Of a DNA stretch of 64,000 nucleotides, positions 177 through 64,000 are shown piece by piece. How positions within the stretch are numbered: position 1 is the first letter of the stretch; each line of letters starts with the position of its first letter. Source of the DNA: Ulva prolifera. Taxonomy: Eukaryota; Chlorophyta; Ulvophyceae; Ulvales; Ulvaceae. Position numbers and translations under genes: made by a program. The stretch covers positions 2,426,001 through 2,490,000 of the forward strand of contig CM041200.1 of assembly GCA_023078555.1 (NCBI GenBank), read 5' to 3'. Under the pieces are notes generated by a model. It was not told where the DNA came from, made no database searches, and was given only the letters and a program-made list of their open reading frames with translations.

Positions 177-861
177 CGCTGCTGGCCTGGAGGTCTAGAG
201 CTTCACCAACCTGCAGCGACGCTGAAGCCCTGCCATGCGCCTGGAGCGGCCGCAGCCGATGCTCGGCAGGCTGAACAACGCAGACGGACAATATCTGAGC
301 TAGCTGGTGTTGTCGCCAGGCAAGCGATGGACCTGCATGTGTGCGCAGAGGCGTTCACCTTTCGCGCCTTTCACGCACTGACACTCCCGGCCGACTGAAC
401 AGAAGCGTGGCAGTTCATGCGCGATATTGTCCACGGTACTGACTCATCATACGCTGGAAGGATATGCATGGACTGAACTCGCACCGGCACAAGATGAGGC
501 TCTCTTGAAGCGGAAGATCTGCTGGGTGTCTACATGGGGTAAGCAGCTGCTGGCGACAGCGCGGCAATGGCTGCCGCGCCGACGAGAGGTCTCGGGCATA
601 TGAAGTACTGCATGCCCGAGGGCGTGTCACATCAATCCACGACTGGCGGACGTCAGACTGCCGCCATTACACCTGCCGCTGCAACGCCGGGGCACAGTGG
701 GTGCCTGATGTATTCGTGCTGACGTTGCGTCTGCGCTGCTCCTCGCGACGAACGTGCACGAGATAGTGTGAAAAAGTCCCGATTGAAGTGCGGCGGACGT
801 TGTGCAGAGCTGTCGTTTTGGTTGGAGTCGCTCGTTGAACGCCAGATTTGATCTCCGAGAC
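177..861. other. Intergenic, divergent promoter region
   Basis: This lies between the minus-strand edge gene and the plus-strand methyltransferase. No frame here has convincing protein character. It presumably holds the promoters and 5' leaders of both genes, but I see no clear TATA or other named element. Confidence 0.4.
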
Positions 862-3800
862 ATGGCCAAGCATCGGATGCAGAAGGGCAAGAACAACGGC
901 AAGCTCAAACACAAAACAGCCTCGAGAGGCGAGACGTCCAAGAGGGTGCGGGCAGTTGCGTGCGTTCTAGGGCAGGTCCGAGTGCTCTGCAGCACGCAGA
1001 GCATGCTCCACAGCGTGGCCACGCTCAAATATCCGCGTACGGCAGCAAAAGCAAACAGCACAAACATGTTGAAAAGGCATTCCAGTAGACGTTGATACGT
1101 CGGCTGACTTACTGGGCTCCTGCACCTCATGCAGAACGTTGCAACATACTCAGCGTCCCACCCGACACTCATCGTCGGGGACGGGAACTTCAGCTTCTCC
1201 CGCGGTCTCGTCAGATCCCTGGGCAGCGGGAGCAACGTGACGGCCACCTCGTATGACTCTCTGGACCAGGTCGTGCAGAAATACGGCTCCAAGGTGAGCA
1301 TCCCAAGCCGCCCTGCCCAGAGCTCTCCGGCCTCTCGGCACAGCAGGAGCAGCCTGCTGTGTCCCGCAAGCGCCACGTGGTGTGCAGGCCCAGGCGCACA
1401 TCGCAGCATGCGAGGCGGCGGGGGCGACCGTCATGCATGGCGTCGACGCGGGCAAGCTGCAGGGGCGCTTTGCTGACGCCTCCTTCAAGCGCATCATCTT
1501 CAACTTCCCGCACACCGGGCAGCAGCGGGTTCACGTCAACAGGGCGATGGTGGCCGCCTTCTTCGCGTCCGCCAGGTGCGCCCCCTCCGGCCACTGTTGC
1601 CTCGTGCACGCAGCCGTGCCAGCTGCCGCGGCGTGCATTCTCGCTCGCACCCCCGCTCGCCCTGTGCATGCCACACCTGCATCCTGGCCACTCTAGGGAG
1701 CCCCGCTGCCGGCCTCCACTGCCGGCAGACAGCCGCACTCCGATGCGGCCACTGCCTGTCAAAGGCACCTTGTCCTGGCGGACCCCAAGCCACCATGCCG
1801 TGCGCTGGCCGCCCACGCCCCCTCGAGCAGCACTGCACGCACCATGCCGCCGCCGTGGGCAACCGTCCCAGCAGCAGCCCTGTTCCATCAGAATGAATGT
1901 GCCAGGTGCCAGCACATCGCACACACTCTCATTTGACATTGCCATGTCGTGCATCGAGCCGGTGGTTGATGTGGCGGGGCAGGCCAGACCCCCCCCCCCC
2001 CGCACACCTCAGCTTGCACCGGCGGCGCCGTGCAGGCCGCTGCTGACGCGGGGAGGCGAGGTGCACGTCACGCTGAAGCTGCAGCCGCCGTACTCCGGCT
2101 GGGGCCTGCCGCAGCTCGCGCAGGCCGCCGGCTTCGTGCACTACTCCACCAAGGACTTTGACTTTGCGGCGTTCCCGGGCTACCTGCACAAGACCACAGA
2201 GGCCGACGCCGCGGACCTTGACACCGGCAGCGCCGACGCGCGCCGCGCCATCAAGACGCTCGTCTTCCGCCGCATCGCCGGGCAGCCGCCAGGTGCGCTG
2301 CCGCCGCGCGGGTGGCGGGCAGCCGGATGGCCGGGGACGTGCCCGCGTGCAGCTGCTGTGGCCGTGCTTGTCGCCTGCATCTGGGCTTGCCCCTGCTGCG
2401 CACTTGTCGAGTGCCTTGTGTGAGGTTGACTGGATCACGGCAGATGCATGCGTGTGTCTGCCATCGGCCAGGGCAGCTAAGTGGTGTGCGCTTGCGGGTG
2501 GGTGGTTGTTGTGGGCCAGCTGGACACTCTGTGTCACTGAGATGCATCAGAATTTCGAGTGACCCAGCAGATGTGGACGCGGGGTGTGCCGTGCAGGGGC
2601 CGGCAGCGCGGCTGCCGATGCCGTCGGAGCGGCCGCCGTCCGAGAGGCTGCGGCGGAGGCGGCGGCGGCAAGCAAGCCATGCGCAGAGAGAGAGGCAGCG
2701 CTCAGGCAGCGGGGGGTCGTTCTGAAGCCTGCACCGCGGATAATGAAGTCTGTCCCTGTGCAGCCGCGAAACGGCAAAATCCCGAAGGCAGCGCTCGCGG
2801 GGTGCCCCGAGTGGCCAGGCAGAGATGCGCCAGAGGTCGCTGGGGCCACCAGTCCAGTGGGTGGACAGACCAAGGCGGATGCTGCCGCAGCTGCGAGTCC
2901 AGCAAAGGATCAGAAGACCAAGGCGAAGCCAGTTCCAGCGGTGGGCCCTGCAGACAACGGCAGACTCCCCACGAAGGCAGCGATTGCAGCTGATGCTCCA
3001 GCCAAGGAGCGAAAGGCCAAGCCGGATGCTGCTGCCAGAGATTCGAAACGGGATGCGCCGGTGGATGACGCGGCTGCAAGTCCAGCAAAGGGATCAAACA
3101 AAAAGGCAAAGCGAGCTTCTGCGGCTGGAAGTCCGGCAACGAAGGGCGGCGGCAAGGCAAAACCAGTCGATGCAGCTGCTGGCTCTGCGGCTGCGCTTCC
3201 AACAAGCAGCGGCAAACACACCGACAAGGCGGCAGTTGCAGCTGATGCTCCAGCCAAGGAGCAAAAGGCCAGGGCCGAGCCCGATGCTTCAGCCAAGGAC
3301 GCAAAACGAGATGCAAAAGCGGTTGAAGCGGCTGCAAGTCCAGCGAAGGGGCTGACCAAAAAGGCGAAGCGAGCCTCTGGAGCTGACGATCCGGCCAAGC
3401 AAGGCAACGGCAAGGCCAAGGCAGGCAATGCAGCGGCAACACAGGCCGAGGGGCCCAGCAGAGACGCGCCGGCAGCAGCTGCGGCTGCATCATCTCCTGC
3501 TCATAACGGCAAAGCCAAGGCACCAGCGGGTGCTGAAGCCAGCACTCAACCACAGGAAGCAGTGGGCCAGCAACTGCAGAGGGTGCAGGCAGCTGGTCAC
3601 AACACGACTCAAAGCAACATCGCGGCCGCTGTGCGGGAGGAGGTCAACTCCTCTCAGGTTGAGCCTCCGCAGCCACAGGCGCCCCCGGCTGCTCCCGCCG
3701 CAGATACGCATGCAGCCGCGGCTGCCGGTGACACCACGCCACGGCAGCCGGCCGGCAAGCAGGCAGCGCCGCCGTCCGAACAGAACGGCCAGGCAGCGGC

Positions 3801-58024: not shown

Positions 58025-61000
58025 ATGGATTTTAATCCTTCTTTTTCATTCGATGACGCGCAAGGACGCACAGTGACACATCCGTGGAGCTTCGCCGGTG
58101 CGCTTCTGCACTGGAAGGATGCTTACTCAACATATTGGCGCTTGAGCACTTCGGTGTCGAGACATACACTGCAGCTCGGAATTACTACTTGCAGGAGCTC
58201 TGTCGCAGGCGCAGAAGCCTGACCCCAGCCAGACCACAGTTGATGCAAAGATCAGGGCGAAACTGCAGAGGACAATCGGCCCAAAGACAAAAGGCAAGGC
58301 TCCACAAGAGGAGGCCTCAGAGTCAGATTCAGAGGATGAGGCCGATGAGGACAGTGACGCCTTGCCAGGTGCTTTGCCAACGCCTGCCGATGTGACACGC
58401 TCCACCAAGGGCACTCCACAGATAGAACAGCGCTGAATTGCGCACCGCAATAGGTGAAATAGACGGGGACAGCGACGATGATGAGCTCGAAGTCTCTGAC
58501 GAGGATTCTGACAGCGGCATCTCACTTGAGGAGGGCACCGAGCAACAGAACGGCCCCAGAGCAGTCGCCACACAACAGGCAGCTGGAGCTGCACGCGGCC
58601 CGGAGAGCGGTGGGGACAGCAGCGAAGATGATGAAGATGACGAGGAGGTGGCAACCGCTGCAGCGCTCAGTAAGCTCACTGCTGTGGCTGCCGCCGCATC
58701 TGACACCTCCGACGACCTCCCCGGAAGTGCCCCTGATGCAGGGGAGGCCTCAGACCCTCCTAGCGACAACGAGGCAAGCGAGGGAGATTCGGGGGGCCCA
58801 GACGACCCAGAATTGTCGGGGGAGCAGGATGGGGCCAGCAGCGGCGCCTCCGGGGAGGGCCGCACAGCCGCAGCCGGGCCGGGAGCCAATGGCAGGCAGG
58901 CCGGGGGGCATGGGAAGGAGGGCAGTTTCTATGCGCAGACCCCGGAAGGCACCTCGTTCTCGGGGAGGTCCTTCGCAGACCTCGGGCTGTCCCGGCCGTT
59001 GACCAAGGCGGTCGCGGACCTCGGCTTCACGGCCCCGACGCCGATCCAGGCGGCGGTCATTCCGCTCGCGCTGCTCGGTCGTGACATCGTCGCGAGCGCG
59101 ATAACTGGCTCCGGCAAAACCGCGGCATTCGCGTTGCCAGTGCTCGAGCGGCTGCTGTTCCGGCAGCGCCGCGTCGCGGCCACACACGTGCTTGTGCTTG
59201 CGCCGACGCGGGAGCTCGCGGCGCAGGGCCACAGCATGGTTTGCCAGCTGGCGCGCTACACCGACGTGCGTGCCGCGCTCGCGGTCGGAGGGCTGTCGCT
59301 CGCGCAGCAGGCGGCGGAGCTGCGCACGGCGCCAGAGATCGTGGTGGCGACGCCCGGCCGGGTCATCGACCACGTCCTCAACACCATGGCCTTTGACCTC
59401 GACACCCTCTCGGCTCTCATCCTCGACGAGGCGGACCGCCTATTGGAGCTCGGCTTCCAGGACGAGGTGCGGCGCCGCTGCTGGTGCGCCTGCTTGTCGC
59501 CGCCGCGGCGGCCAGGCAGCACCGTGGGTGCGGCTGCAGCGCCGGCATGCTCTGTGCGCCGCGTGATTGTTGTGGGTGTGAGGTAGGCGCTCGCTTGGCG
59601 TATGCATTAAATCAGTGGAGCTAGCTCGTGCTGTGTGCGCTTGGAGGTCGGTGTGTGAGCGTATGAACTGCTGCAACCTTGGCGGTGTCAGGGCTGCGAT
59701 AGCCGCGCGCCGGCTAGATCTGGCGCGCCACACCCTGGGCGTTGACACATCGCGTTGTGCGCTCGCGACACCGCTGACGGTGGGCGCTGCTGCAGCTGCG
59801 CCAGATCATCCGCCGGGCGCCCCGCAAGCGGCAGACGCTGCTCTTTTCTGCCACCATGTCCACCGGCGTCCAGCAGCTGGTAGACCTATCTCTGAATGCG
59901 CCGGTACGGCTTGCTGCTGACGCGGCCGCCGCCGCGCCCAAGCGCCTGCGCCACGAGGTGCTGCGGCTGCGCGGCGGCGCCGCAGCCGCCGACAAGGCGG
60001 CCGTGCTGTGCGCGCTGTGCGCGCGCGCCCTGCGCAGCCTGCGCACGATCATCTTCTGCCGGCAGAAGCGGCACGCGCACCGGCTGAAGATCATGCTGGG
60101 CCTCGCCGGGCTGCCGCTGGCGTGCGAGCTCCACGGCGACATGACCCAGGTGCGCGCGCTGGCTCTGTGCCCCCCTCCCCGCCGATCACACGCCCCCTGG
60201 GTCTTCATGCCTGCTGAAGGGAACCTGTCGTGTCCGCCCACCTGTAGCCGATCGCACGGCGCCGAGACGGTGCGGCGTGGTGATTGTGGCTGTGGCGTGA
60301 TCATGCATGATGTCGATGCATATCGACCGCCGGAGTGTGCTGACAGTTGCGCTGCGTCTGCAGTCCGCGAGGCTCGAGGCGCTGGAGACGTTCCGCACGG
60401 GTGCGGCGACGCTGTTGCTTGCGACGGACGTAGCGGCGCGTGGCCTCGACATCCTCGGCGTGGACGCCGTCGTCAACTTCGACTGCCCGAGGAGCGTTGA
60501 GACGTACCTGCACAGGGTCGGGCGCACGGCGCGCGCCGGCCGGGGGGGGCTCGCGATCACGATCGCCGAGGACGGCGACCGCGGGCTGCTCAAGGCGGTG
60601 GTGAAGCAGGTGGGCGTGCAGCTGTCGCGGCGCGAGGTGCCGCCGGCGGTCGTTGACAGCTGGCGCCGTCGCACCGAGGCCCTCACGGCCACCATCCACG
60701 AAGTGCTGCAGGTGCGCTCACGCCTGCACGGCCGGCCACGCTGCAGGTTGACTCGACGATGCCGCTGTCGTTCTGGCCGGCACTGGAGGCGCCCGCGTCG
60801 GGCATGCATCTGCACCGGCGCGTGCACCACAGCAGCACCACCGCCGCATCCCATTGTCATCCCTGCTCAGTGGCGGCCCCGTAGCCCGCCCCTGTGCATC
60901 ACATCCACCGCTGCGCTGAGTGCCTGTTGGCACCTGGATCAGGAAAAGCGATGCGTGCGCGTCCCGAGGGGCCACCCCCTCGCAAGTGGGGCGCTGCTGA

Positions 61001-61882
61001 GGCGCGGCACGGGTGCAGGAGGAGAAGGCGGAGAAGGCGCTGCGCACGGCAGAGCTCGAGGCCACCCGGGCCTCCAATATGGTCGAGCACGAGCGCGAGA
61101 TCTTCTCGCGGCCGCGCCGCGAGTGGTTCCAGACGCCCAAGGAAAAGCGGGCTTCTGCGAAGGCCGCTGCTGAGGTCGCGCTCGCGGTGCCCTCCGCCGC
61201 CGCTGCGACCGCGCCTCCGCCCGCGAAGGGCGCAAGGGCCGCCAAGAACGCCGAAGCGAAAGGTGCGTCTGCAGTGCCCGCTGCTCCCGGCTGCAGCGGA
61301 CTGCCGGCGTGCGCGAGCAGCAAGGCGGGAGGCACTGACGAGCGGTGTCTGTGTGTGCGCAGGTCGGCAGGGGAAGGAGGAGCGGGCAGCCCCCGCCCAC
61401 GTGGCAGAGACGAAGAAGGTGGCAGGCGCGGTCAAGGCGGCCAAGTCGGCAGCCCGGCAGTTCCAGCAGACCGGCTCCAAGCCGCGGGAAGCGGCCAAGG
61501 CGGCGCTGACAGCCACAGGCGCCTCGAAGAAGAAGAGTCAGAAGAAGCGCAGCCGAGAGAGTGGCGCTGGGGAGAAGGAGGCACCTGCCGAGAAGGCGCC
61601 ACGGGTGACACGGGTGTATGCAGGTACGTGTGCCCCTCTCGCCCCGCATGCAGTGCACCCTGCTCACGTGCTCCTTGCTTGCGGCAGTGTGGTGTCGAGA
61701 TGGTGTGAAGGGCGCGGGTGGTTTGACACGTGCATGACCGGTGGTTCACTGCAGGTGGCGGCAAGAGTAGCAAGGTCCAGGCCCCCAAGACGGGCCTATC
61801 GAAGGGGCAAAAAGCGAAACTGGCTCGCAAGGGCAAGGGGAAGTCACAATTCAAGGGCAAGGCAAAGTACAAACGGAAGTGA
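58025..61882 (+). CDS. DDX27: DEAD-box RNA helicase DDX27/Drs1
   Basis: Eight exons in phase: 58025-58153, 58209-58368, 58454-59466, 59796-60149, 60364-60711, 61019-61262, 61363-61623, 61755-61882 (about 878 aa). The start MDFNPSFSFDD and the end QFKGKAKYKRK both fit DDX27-type proteins. An acidic Ser/Asp/Glu region precedes the helicase core. Motifs in order: FTAPTPIQ (Q), AITGSGKT (I), PTRELA (Ia), ATPGR (Ib), ILDEADRLL (II), LLFSATMS (III), TIIFCRQK (IV), LLATDVAARGLDI (V), HRVGRTARAGRGG (VI). A REREIFSRP/REWFQTPKEKR-like segment and a Lys-rich tail follow. Drs1/DDX27 is a nucleolar ATPase for large-subunit rRNA processing. Introns are 50-340 nt with GTGCG-type donors. Confidence 0.94.
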
Positions 61883-62536: not shown

Positions 62537-63173
62537 TCAGGTGCCGCCGGGGCGCTGCTGGCTTTGCTGCCTGTGACGCTGCTCTGCCAGGTCGTGATGC
62601 ACTTGGATACACGTGTCGATCGCTTGAAGCGCCTGCTTGCAATCCTGTTTGTGCTGATACTGGCCCACGTTTGCTAGGCTCCCGCGTGAACAGGCCTCCA
62701 GCTCCTCCACTGCACCCAGTTCATGCTGCCAGGCACTCAGGCTCACACAGGCAAAGCCACACTGTGCCGGAGGGCATCAAAGTGACGAGGCTGACTGGCA
62801 TAGACATCAGTTCTGTAGTGTTTGGATAGCTTTGTCGGTCATGCGGGCCGGGTGAAGGTGAGCGTACCTTCGTCTGGACACATCTCATGCAAGGCGCACC
62901 ACCCAGCAAAAGCTTGCAGATGGCGACACACTACCTGGAATCCCACAGCGTCAACGATACAGGCGGAATCGGAAACGCAGAGCCAAGCGACGCCCGCAAC
63001 GAGGTCGCTGCCCATGTGGTGTTCGAGGTCACATTTATTTGTCACTCGGTCACAGCAGCATGTTCAGGGCTCGATGACCCCACCTCATGGTCACTCTTCC
63101 TCTTCGATACGCAGTCCGCGTAAGCATCAAGGATCTGGCGACACTTGGACAATGTCAGGATCACGTTTGACAT
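62537..63173 (-). CDS. Small protein with four CX9C motifs (mitochondrial IMS type)
   Basis: Three exons in phase: 63084-63173, 62868-62934, 62537-62709, giving 109 aa. Cysteines fall at 11/21, 33/43, 49/59 and 76/86, each pair separated by exactly nine residues (CRQILDAYADC, CRHLQAFAGWC, CPDEVEELEAC, CKQALQAIDTC). The third motif is created only by splicing exon 2 to exon 3, which supports the model. Twin CX9C proteins are imported into the mitochondrial intermembrane space and oxidised by MIA40/ERV1, forming paired helical hairpins. NDUFA8 of complex I is a known four-CX9C protein, but the spacing between motifs and the size differ here, so I do not assign that name. The start ATG is preceded by a cCAG-like sequence, so an upstream exon cannot be excluded. 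Confidence 0.65.
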
Positions 63174-63243
63174 GTCCTGATGCGCGTGTACGCAACAGCG
63201 CGCTCGGTACCGTCGCCCCAAGGTGTTACGCACACACGCCACC

Positions 63244-64000
63244 CTACGCAATAGTGAACCAGGCGATAGACACAGCACACAGCAGCACGCCGCTGCTTTG
63301 CCTCGGCACGCACTTGTGACTCATCTGTGTCGAGGCGAAAACGAGAAATGCACAGCGGCAGGCACGAATCCGGAACCCTAGTATGCTTTTTGGCCGGAGT
63401 ATAATTCCCGCTAGTTTTTGCGCGTGAAACCGCTGGTTCGTCGCAGCAAGAGAGACACGTATCGTCAGCACCAAGACACAATTCCGGCTTCTATCCAAAA
63501 CCTGTGAGCGCTGCATGGCCGACAAGCAGTTCTGGCTCCCTCTCGTACGTCCGCTTGCAGGGTACAGGGGCACACCCTGAAACGGGTCCACCCATTCCAT
63601 TGCTAGATATCCCTTTTCTGTCAGTTGCATTTCTTCCCGCGCCCTTTCGTTGAAGCCTTTGCGTCCGTGCCCTGGCTGACGCCCACTACCGCTCAGGTAC
63701 GATGCCCTTATCTGGCCGTGGTGGTCATGTAATTTGCGTGAATCATGTCTTTACTCTCCTTCAGTTCTGCTAGTGTCAGCATATGCCTGTGAATGTGTGA
63801 GGTGCCTGGTTCGTTTGGCACATATGTTCTCTAGTCATTCCGGCGCCTGCGTACAGCAAAGCCTGCAAACGCCTGCCTCGAAGAATTTGGGAAGCTTGTA
63901 AATTCTCCATTGTGGATGCGGTGTGTTCAACAAGAAGCCTGTGACGAGGCGCTTTGCTGCGCATTACCTCCCTGTACACGTAGCCCATGCTGTCAAGAAT
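63244..64000 (-). CDS. Partial hypothetical protein, cut by window edge
   Basis: A minus exon at the window edge (63968-64000) encodes ILDSMGYVYRE and ends with GAG|GTAATG. It joins in phase to an exon starting at 63675 (acceptor gTCAG) encoding GRKGFNERAREEMQLTEKG and YLAMEWVDPFQG. The frame stays open to a stop at 63244, but the part after about 63500 looks less coding and may be intronic or UTR. The opening resembles the DnaJ-X type of helical segment only loosely; I do not assign a family. Confidence 0.4.

Follow-up and report, generated by a model that had tools for sequence, protein, structure and literature searches.

CHCHD5, a protein of about 110 residues whose four CX9C motifs form two CHCH hairpins, follows the spacing CX9C-X11-CX9C-X13-CX9C-X10-CX9C and has its disulfides at C12-C44, C22-C34, C58-C89 and C68-C79 (PMC12114033). 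The complex I subunit NDUFA8 also has four CX9C motifs, for which the same source gives gaps of 9, 11 and 10 residues (PMC12114033), with gaps of 9, 11 and 11 in the sequence used here. Mdm35/TRIAP1 is built as a single hairpin with a long X18 loop between its cysteine pairs (PMC12114033). The table of that paper includes a PET191 entry with five-residue spacers, so a spacer this short is not unprecedented among CX9C proteins. Toxoplasma ATPTG9, conserved in Apicomplexa, is described as having two CHCH domains with four CX9C motifs and as taking part in the contact between ATP synthase dimers (PMC7785744).

The gene reported here lies in a 64,000-nucleotide stretch of DNA from Ulva prolifera, referred to below as the window (G000:C5:2426001-2490000 of the 88.9-Mb, 44-contig assembly G000, which was also the genome searched). 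The genes of this assembly speak well for a green alga: a PsaD exon on a large contig shows 76% identity to the Chlamydomonas protein, and its top PDB matches, one 698-residue chain hit in three stretches aside, are PsaD chains of Bryopsis, Chlorella, Ostreococcus and Chlamydomonas. Base-by-base rebuilding of the minus-strand model gave three exons that join in phase to encode a protein of 109 amino acids, MSNVILTLSKCRQILDAYADCVSKRKSDHEVVCRHLQAFAGWCALHEMCPDEVEELEACSRGSLANVGQYQHKQDCKQALQAIDTCIQVHHDLAEQRHRQQSQQRPGGT (Table 1). An earlier sequence-only reading of this DNA had proposed exon coordinates and splice junctions that our rebuild reproduced exactly, and both introns run from GT to AG. 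Cysteines occur only at positions 11, 21, 33, 43, 49, 59, 76 and 86 (intervals 9/11/9/5/9/16/9); this places all eight, with none to spare, in four CX9C motifs separated by gaps of 11, 5 and 16 residues, with the third pair, C49-C59, crossing the second splice junction. The length, the four motifs, the three gaps and the pair across a junction had been given in the sequence-only reading, and all were borne out. Its remark that four CX9C motifs in so short a protein are rare was overstated, as it overlooked CHCHD5/Mic14 (110 aa, four CX9C). The C-terminal tail encoded by exon 3 is polar and rich in Gln and His.

Table 1. Features of the spliced CX9C gene (positions within the window) and of its same-genome relative L004 (positions in the assembly).
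Feature	Position	Strand	Description
Exon 1	63173-63084	minus	90 nt, codons 1-30 = MSNVILTLSKCRQILDAYADCVSKRKSDHE; first CX9C pair C11-C21
Intron 1	63083-62935	minus	149 nt, GTGGGG..TTCCAG
Exon 2	62934-62868	minus	67 nt, codons 31-52 plus one base; second pair C33-C43; C49 is the first half of the third pair
Intron 2	62867-62710	minus	158 nt, GTACGC..GTGCAG; splits a Val codon within the third CX9C pair
Exon 3	62709-62537	minus	173 nt including TGA, codons 53-109; C59 and fourth pair C76-C86
TGTAA	62306-62310	minus	227 nt past the stop; the only TGTAA on the minus strand between the stop and 61884
L004	G000:C1:10787748-10790858, frame 1291-1680	minus	120 aa, one open frame, no introns in the coding frame

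How often free splice choice alone produces such an array was gauged by listing, for each strand of the window, every three-exon GT-AG model that runs from an ATG to a stop and contains exactly eight cysteines in four CX9C motifs; exons were allowed up to 150, 150 and 250 nt and introns 60-250 nt, and exon 1 had to contain at least one cysteine. The real window yielded four such models from a single start codon, all of them splice variants of the gene in Table 1. After dinucleotide shuffling, at least one four-CX9C model appeared in 18 of 160 windows (mean 0.17 starts); an earlier set of shuffles gave none in 11. The motif count by itself thus corresponds to p ~0.1 per window and is weak proof. 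The sequence-only reading had leaned on this count, which is not far past chance once splicing is free, and independent evidence is therefore needed.

Codon use was one source of such evidence. Its training set comprised 1990 codons drawn from seven HSP70 and two PsaD stretches, and nearby stop-free non-coding segments, which overlap one another, served as the null. Exons 1 and 3 are coding-like: 0.8% of 1145 null segments equal exon 1, none of 414 equals exon 3, and for both exons their own frame scores best among the six. Exon 2, which is short and Cys-rich, fails the test, as 89% of 1546 null segments score as high, and the complete CDS comes to -0.074 per codon, slightly under the window background. 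Because the CDS average falls below background and the null segments overlap, we regard codon use as supporting evidence only.

Conservation was sought among 5.77 billion proteins by a search in which matching needs shared 5-residue words. Two ORFs, P0001 and P0002, both from other assemblies, matched the window protein, and within the sensitivity of this word-based search no named relative was found. P0001 is 84% identical to residues 1-31 over 31 aa, where residue 31 is read-through of the donor, and diverges right after the exon 1 donor; at the exon 1/intron 1 border it reads E-V-G, which is compatible with a conserved GT donor. P0002 is 86% identical to residues 30-51 over 22 aa, and its similarity stops at the exon 2 donor. 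The sequence-only reading had stated that cysteines unconserved in related algae would speak against the gene; all five cysteines of the stretches matched by P0001 and P0002 are retained. These two ORFs represent one exon each, and the protein search found neither a full-length orthologue nor a close relative of exon 3. Searched against its own genome, the protein hit nothing but the three exons from which it is spliced (E up to 0.001), with no second copies. With the protein as query, viral contigs gave 8 stretches, none of them confirmed. A scan of the window for Rfam families and tRNAs found none of either, and no published account of the gene or its layout was found in titles and abstract openings. 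The gene structure is shown on paper, as are the cysteine layout and the likeness of exons 1 and 2 to ORFs from other assemblies, and we consider it very likely that this is a genuine green algal nuclear gene, of the CHCH kind.

The start codon is uncertain. P0001 has a Val at the position of the window's start Met, and the start may therefore have moved in one lineage, or the true start may lie in a further 5' exon. No in-frame ATG was found upstream of the start Met before the previous stop (ORF 63042-63320). Judged by eye, both the window and P0001 have a Gln two residues before the Met/Val, which is compatible with CAG. On the other side of the gene, the TGTAA listed in Table 1 is what we take to be a possible, if weak, green-algal poly(A) signal. 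Plus-strand open frames face the 3' end of the gene, tail to tail with it, among them a helicase (Helicase_C in ORF 60301-61173); a Lys-rich frame that ends at 61882 is probably the C terminus of this helicase. Upstream of the gene, plus-strand open frames start about 0.9 kb away, and the three of these frames tested (L016) gave no Pfam match.

In Pfam, the window protein comes closest to Cmc1 (PF08583), with 21.3 bits and an E value of 2.9e-4, just under the cut-off of 22. PF16860, the CX9C family of CHCHD5 type, scores 18.0 bits (E 0.0027, cut-off 26.4), five further matches are weaker and also sub-threshold, and the 9.3 bits obtained with PF05254 (UPF0203, Mdm35/TRIAP1) do not reach the cut-off of 27. 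The HMM comparison with CHCH families that the sequence-only reading had suggested thus brought up Cmc1 and PF16860, with every match below its curated cut-off. Pairwise likeness was judged against shuffles in which residues were permuted with the cysteines held fixed (1000 unless stated). The query HMM scored 10.3 bits against human CHCHD5, a value reached by 8 of 1000 shuffles, and direct alignment to the same protein was equalled by 10 of 2000. Because the Mia40 exon of the alga's own genome (6.4 bits, 13/1000) and human TRIAP1 (4.8 bits, 46/1000) behave similarly, this CHCHD5 signal is not sharply specific. With NDUFA8 the HMM gave 0.5 bits (520/1000) and the alignment was matched by 1555 of 2000 shuffles; with yeast Mdm35 the protein did no better than shuffles (319/1000).

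Spacing was compared over 114 rows (P0009-P0122) from the third protein search described below, in which the named rows are mostly vertebrate CHCHD5: 75 show the full pattern and 39 lack it, and 73 of the 75 have gaps of 11, 13 and 10. The window protein agrees with CHCHD5 in its length, in its four CX9C motifs and in the gap of 11 within the first hairpin, but its inter-hairpin linker has 5 residues rather than 13 and its second hairpin gap 16 rather than 10. NDUFA8 is longer and, apart from having four CX9C motifs, differs throughout in its gaps (9/11/11), as the sequence-only reading had recognized. Mdm35/TRIAP1 resembles the window protein in the long loop between the cysteine pairs of a hairpin (18 residues against 16) but has one hairpin and not two. 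On these sequence comparisons, in which CHCHD5/Mic14 was represented by CHCHD5 sequences, the closest known protein appears to be CHCHD5/Mic14 rather than NDUFA8, at a spacing other than that of CHCHD5 and under the Pfam cut-offs.

A further counterpart came from the same genome. A PF16860 search picked out G000:C1:10789185-10789358, within the gene L004 (Table 1), whose protein scores 32.8 bits for PF16860, over the cut-off of 26.4. L004 reads CX9C-10-CX9C-5-CPD-x7-C with a seventh cysteine 22 residues on. Its relatives in other entries, P0003-P0008, are 69-99% identical and 119-120 aa long, P0006 being a longer predicted frame. The x5 join is present in all six and the eighth cysteine in five, so that four CX9C motifs with gaps of 10, 5 and 22 occur in 5 of the 6. 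The family pattern, CX9C-x10/11-CX9C-x5-CP-x8-C-xn-C-x9-C, shares with the window protein both the x5 join and the CP at the fifth cysteine. It differs in the intronless coding frame of L004, a longer second loop, an identity to the window protein of only 22-25% and a conserved C-terminal KG-x-WP stretch that the window protein lacks. The eighth cysteine is missing in L004 and in the near-identical P0003 and present in P0004-P0008; probably one lineage has recently lost this disulfide partner.

By hhalign the window protein and the L004 family align across 79 columns (E 7.6e-5, probability 62%), and each of the eight cysteines finds its counterpart. Against the family HMM the protein scored 20.6 bits, a value reached by none of 1000 Cys-fixed shuffles, and the query HMM in turn gave 24.1 bits with P0004 (0/1000) and 16.8 bits with P0008 (1/1000). 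Exon 3 alone was equalled by 7 of 1000 shuffles; when only the exon 3 residues were shuffled within the full protein, the full score was still attained in 152 of 1000, so most of the signal comes from exons 1 and 2. A third protein search was made with an alignment of P0004, P0005, P0007, P0008, the window protein and human CHCHD5, and returned 127 proteins. The best 120 of these 127 comprised the L004 family together with other rows, the named ones among which were mostly vertebrate CHCHD5; plant or algal names, P0001 and P0002 were absent among them. The L004 family as query against prokaryotic genome contigs gave 81 stretches, none confirmed. Among solved structures its profile reached only CHCHD5 (E 0.12) and five Mdm35 sequences (E 0.23-0.42); the window protein itself had no sequence match there at E up to 10.

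The C-terminal half of P0003-P0008 (residues ~48-111) has a weak likeness to yeast Mdm35 (E 0.23, 13.6 bits, shuffles 0/1000); against human TRIAP1 the family was equalled by 37 of 1000 shuffles. An Mdm35-like second hairpin was considered for the window protein too and rejected: the L004 profile had brushed Mdm35, and the window protein itself had not risen above its shuffles. UPF0203 and TRIAP1 matches were not found in the alga's genome by a search that intron-split genes would escape. A weak CHCHD5 match at C3:236897 (E 0.037) was set aside, its frames being without a CX9C array.

These results bear unequally on the other explanations of the locus. The array could have arisen by chance from the freedom of splicing, or be stitched together from exons of other frames or of a pseudogene, and the yield of the shuffled windows, the failure of exon 2 in the codon-use test and a CDS average slightly under background all lean that way. 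Against this, exons 1 and 2 are conserved elsewhere with all their cysteines and end at the predicted sites, exon 3 is coding-like, and the full protein resembles the independent L004 family; we hold a chance origin to be very unlikely. Less probable again is a diverged NDUFA8 of complex I, a reading that has the four CX9C motifs in its favour. We rejected this identity, which we consider extremely improbable, on the spacing, on the shuffle tests and on a separate NDUFA8 exon elsewhere in the genome (G000:C3:8053613-8053846, E 7e-5).

An orthologue of CHCHD5/Mic14 that has kept the CHCHD5 function and merely changed its linkers (13 to 5 and 10 to 16) would explain the identical 9-11-9 first hairpin, the length of 109 against 110, the alignment to human CHCHD5 that beats nearly all Cys-fixed shuffles and the appearance of PF16860 among the weak Pfam matches. 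A 14-row tree also joins the window protein to CHCHD5 (89/88) and not to the L004 family, and gives it a branch as long as 3.3 changes per column, but this tree is unreliable because NDUFA8 falls among the L004 family. Set against orthology are L004, an at least equally good candidate in the same genome that scores above the PF16860 cut-off, the near-constant 11/13/10 gaps of CHCHD5 among the rows with a full pattern, and the Mia40 exon, which does nearly as well against shuffles. When CHCHD5 and the other CHCH proteins are compared, HMM scores and hhalign favour the L004 family and the unreliable tree favours CHCHD5. We judge orthology unlikely. A possible, though doubtful, alternative is that the protein belongs to a respiratory complex, or to ATP synthase, as a lineage-specific accessory subunit facing the intermembrane space. 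It has precedents in ATPTG9 and NDUFA8 (PMC7785744, PMC12114033) and is in keeping with relatives found only as ORFs of other assemblies, with no named protein among them. Speaking against it, no solved structure matched the window protein by sequence, although a fast-evolving subunit could escape such a search, and the L004-family profile reached only CHCHD5 and Mdm35 in structures. The reading that we prefer, and consider likely, is that this real green algal gene encodes a diverged two-hairpin CHCH protein of the CHCHD5/Mic14 type, in the neighbourhood of PF16860, which would be oxidised by Mia40/Erv1 in the intermembrane space. As a fast-evolving protein of the CHCH kind with an unusual linker layout between its two hairpins, it is very probably genuine.

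On the preferred reading the gene product would be a small soluble CHCH protein with two helical hairpins, made in the cytosol as a precursor that would cross the outer membrane unfolded. In the mitochondrial intermembrane space a Mia40/Erv1 relay would then oxidise it, forming four disulfides. The genome contains a Mia40-like exon (G000:C8:3409856) with a CPC and two CX9C motifs, an Erv1 over the Pfam cut-off and, by eye, COX19-like and COX23-like exons (L009, L010); given these genes, the precursor should be trapped in that compartment. Arabidopsis without MIA40 is described as having no clear phenotype, and loss of ERV1 as embryo-lethal (PMC3800646). Since MIA40 is dispensable there, the exact form of the relay may differ in the alga.

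If the cysteines pair as in CHCHD5, the predicted disulfides are C11-C43, C21-C33, C49-C86 and C59-C76. Because only five residues join the hairpins, the second helix of hairpin 1 probably continues with hardly a break into the first helix of hairpin 2, and the protein would form a stiffer rod than CHCHD5. The AlphaFold2 model of the relative P0004 (mean pLDDT 71, pTM 0.63; 54-71 across five models) has helices at 17-32, 38-55, 57-71 and 90-103. The second and third of these are one residue apart at the x5 join, where pLDDT is in the 80s, and this single intervening residue suggests a near-continuous rod. No disulfides were seen in the P0004 model, and Foldseek and VIA-align with it gave nothing convincing. 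We infer the location, the disulfide pairing and the shape of the window protein. By analogy with NDUFA8 and ATPTG9, our guess is that it may help to assemble a respiratory complex, as the sequence-only reading also suggested, or be one of the accessory subunits of such a complex. A more far-reaching proposal, which we think improbable, is that green algae possess a separate four-CX9C branch whose invariant 'xxxxx-C-P' join would give a rigid four-helix rod, with at least two members in this genome serving as lineage-specific scaffold subunits of an intermembrane-space complex. The comparison that this proposal draws with Toxoplasma ATPTG9 is with that protein as described (PMC7785744).

Other loci met in the genome are recorded here in their own right. 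HSP70-like sequences, for which at least 71 matches were counted across the genome, form groups in both orientations at G000:C3:9214017-9349105, G000:C5:9164175-9171335 and C34:2320-2845, which suggests local duplication of stress-chaperone genes. In L006 (G000:C4:6739049-6742159) the plus-strand frame from 1222 encodes an acidic protein with a Cys-rich stretch, CAFCKFMKGGGC.., that has two CX9C motifs; by eye it looks like a GCK-domain protein. L012 (G000:C5, ~5978356) has a 2.6-kb plus-strand frame at 465-3069 with what by eye are a CCHC knuckle and an integrase-like stretch, and resembles a copia-type retrotransposon polyprotein.

Annotation easily overlooks small spliced CX9C genes, and an ordinary search fails to place the window protein, which has too few short words in common with proteins that bear a name. 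The gene alone settles no long-standing question. If confirmed, the window gene and L004 would together extend the range of known four-CX9C proteins by a compact layout with fused hairpins, and would offer a handle on intermembrane-space factors specific to green algae.
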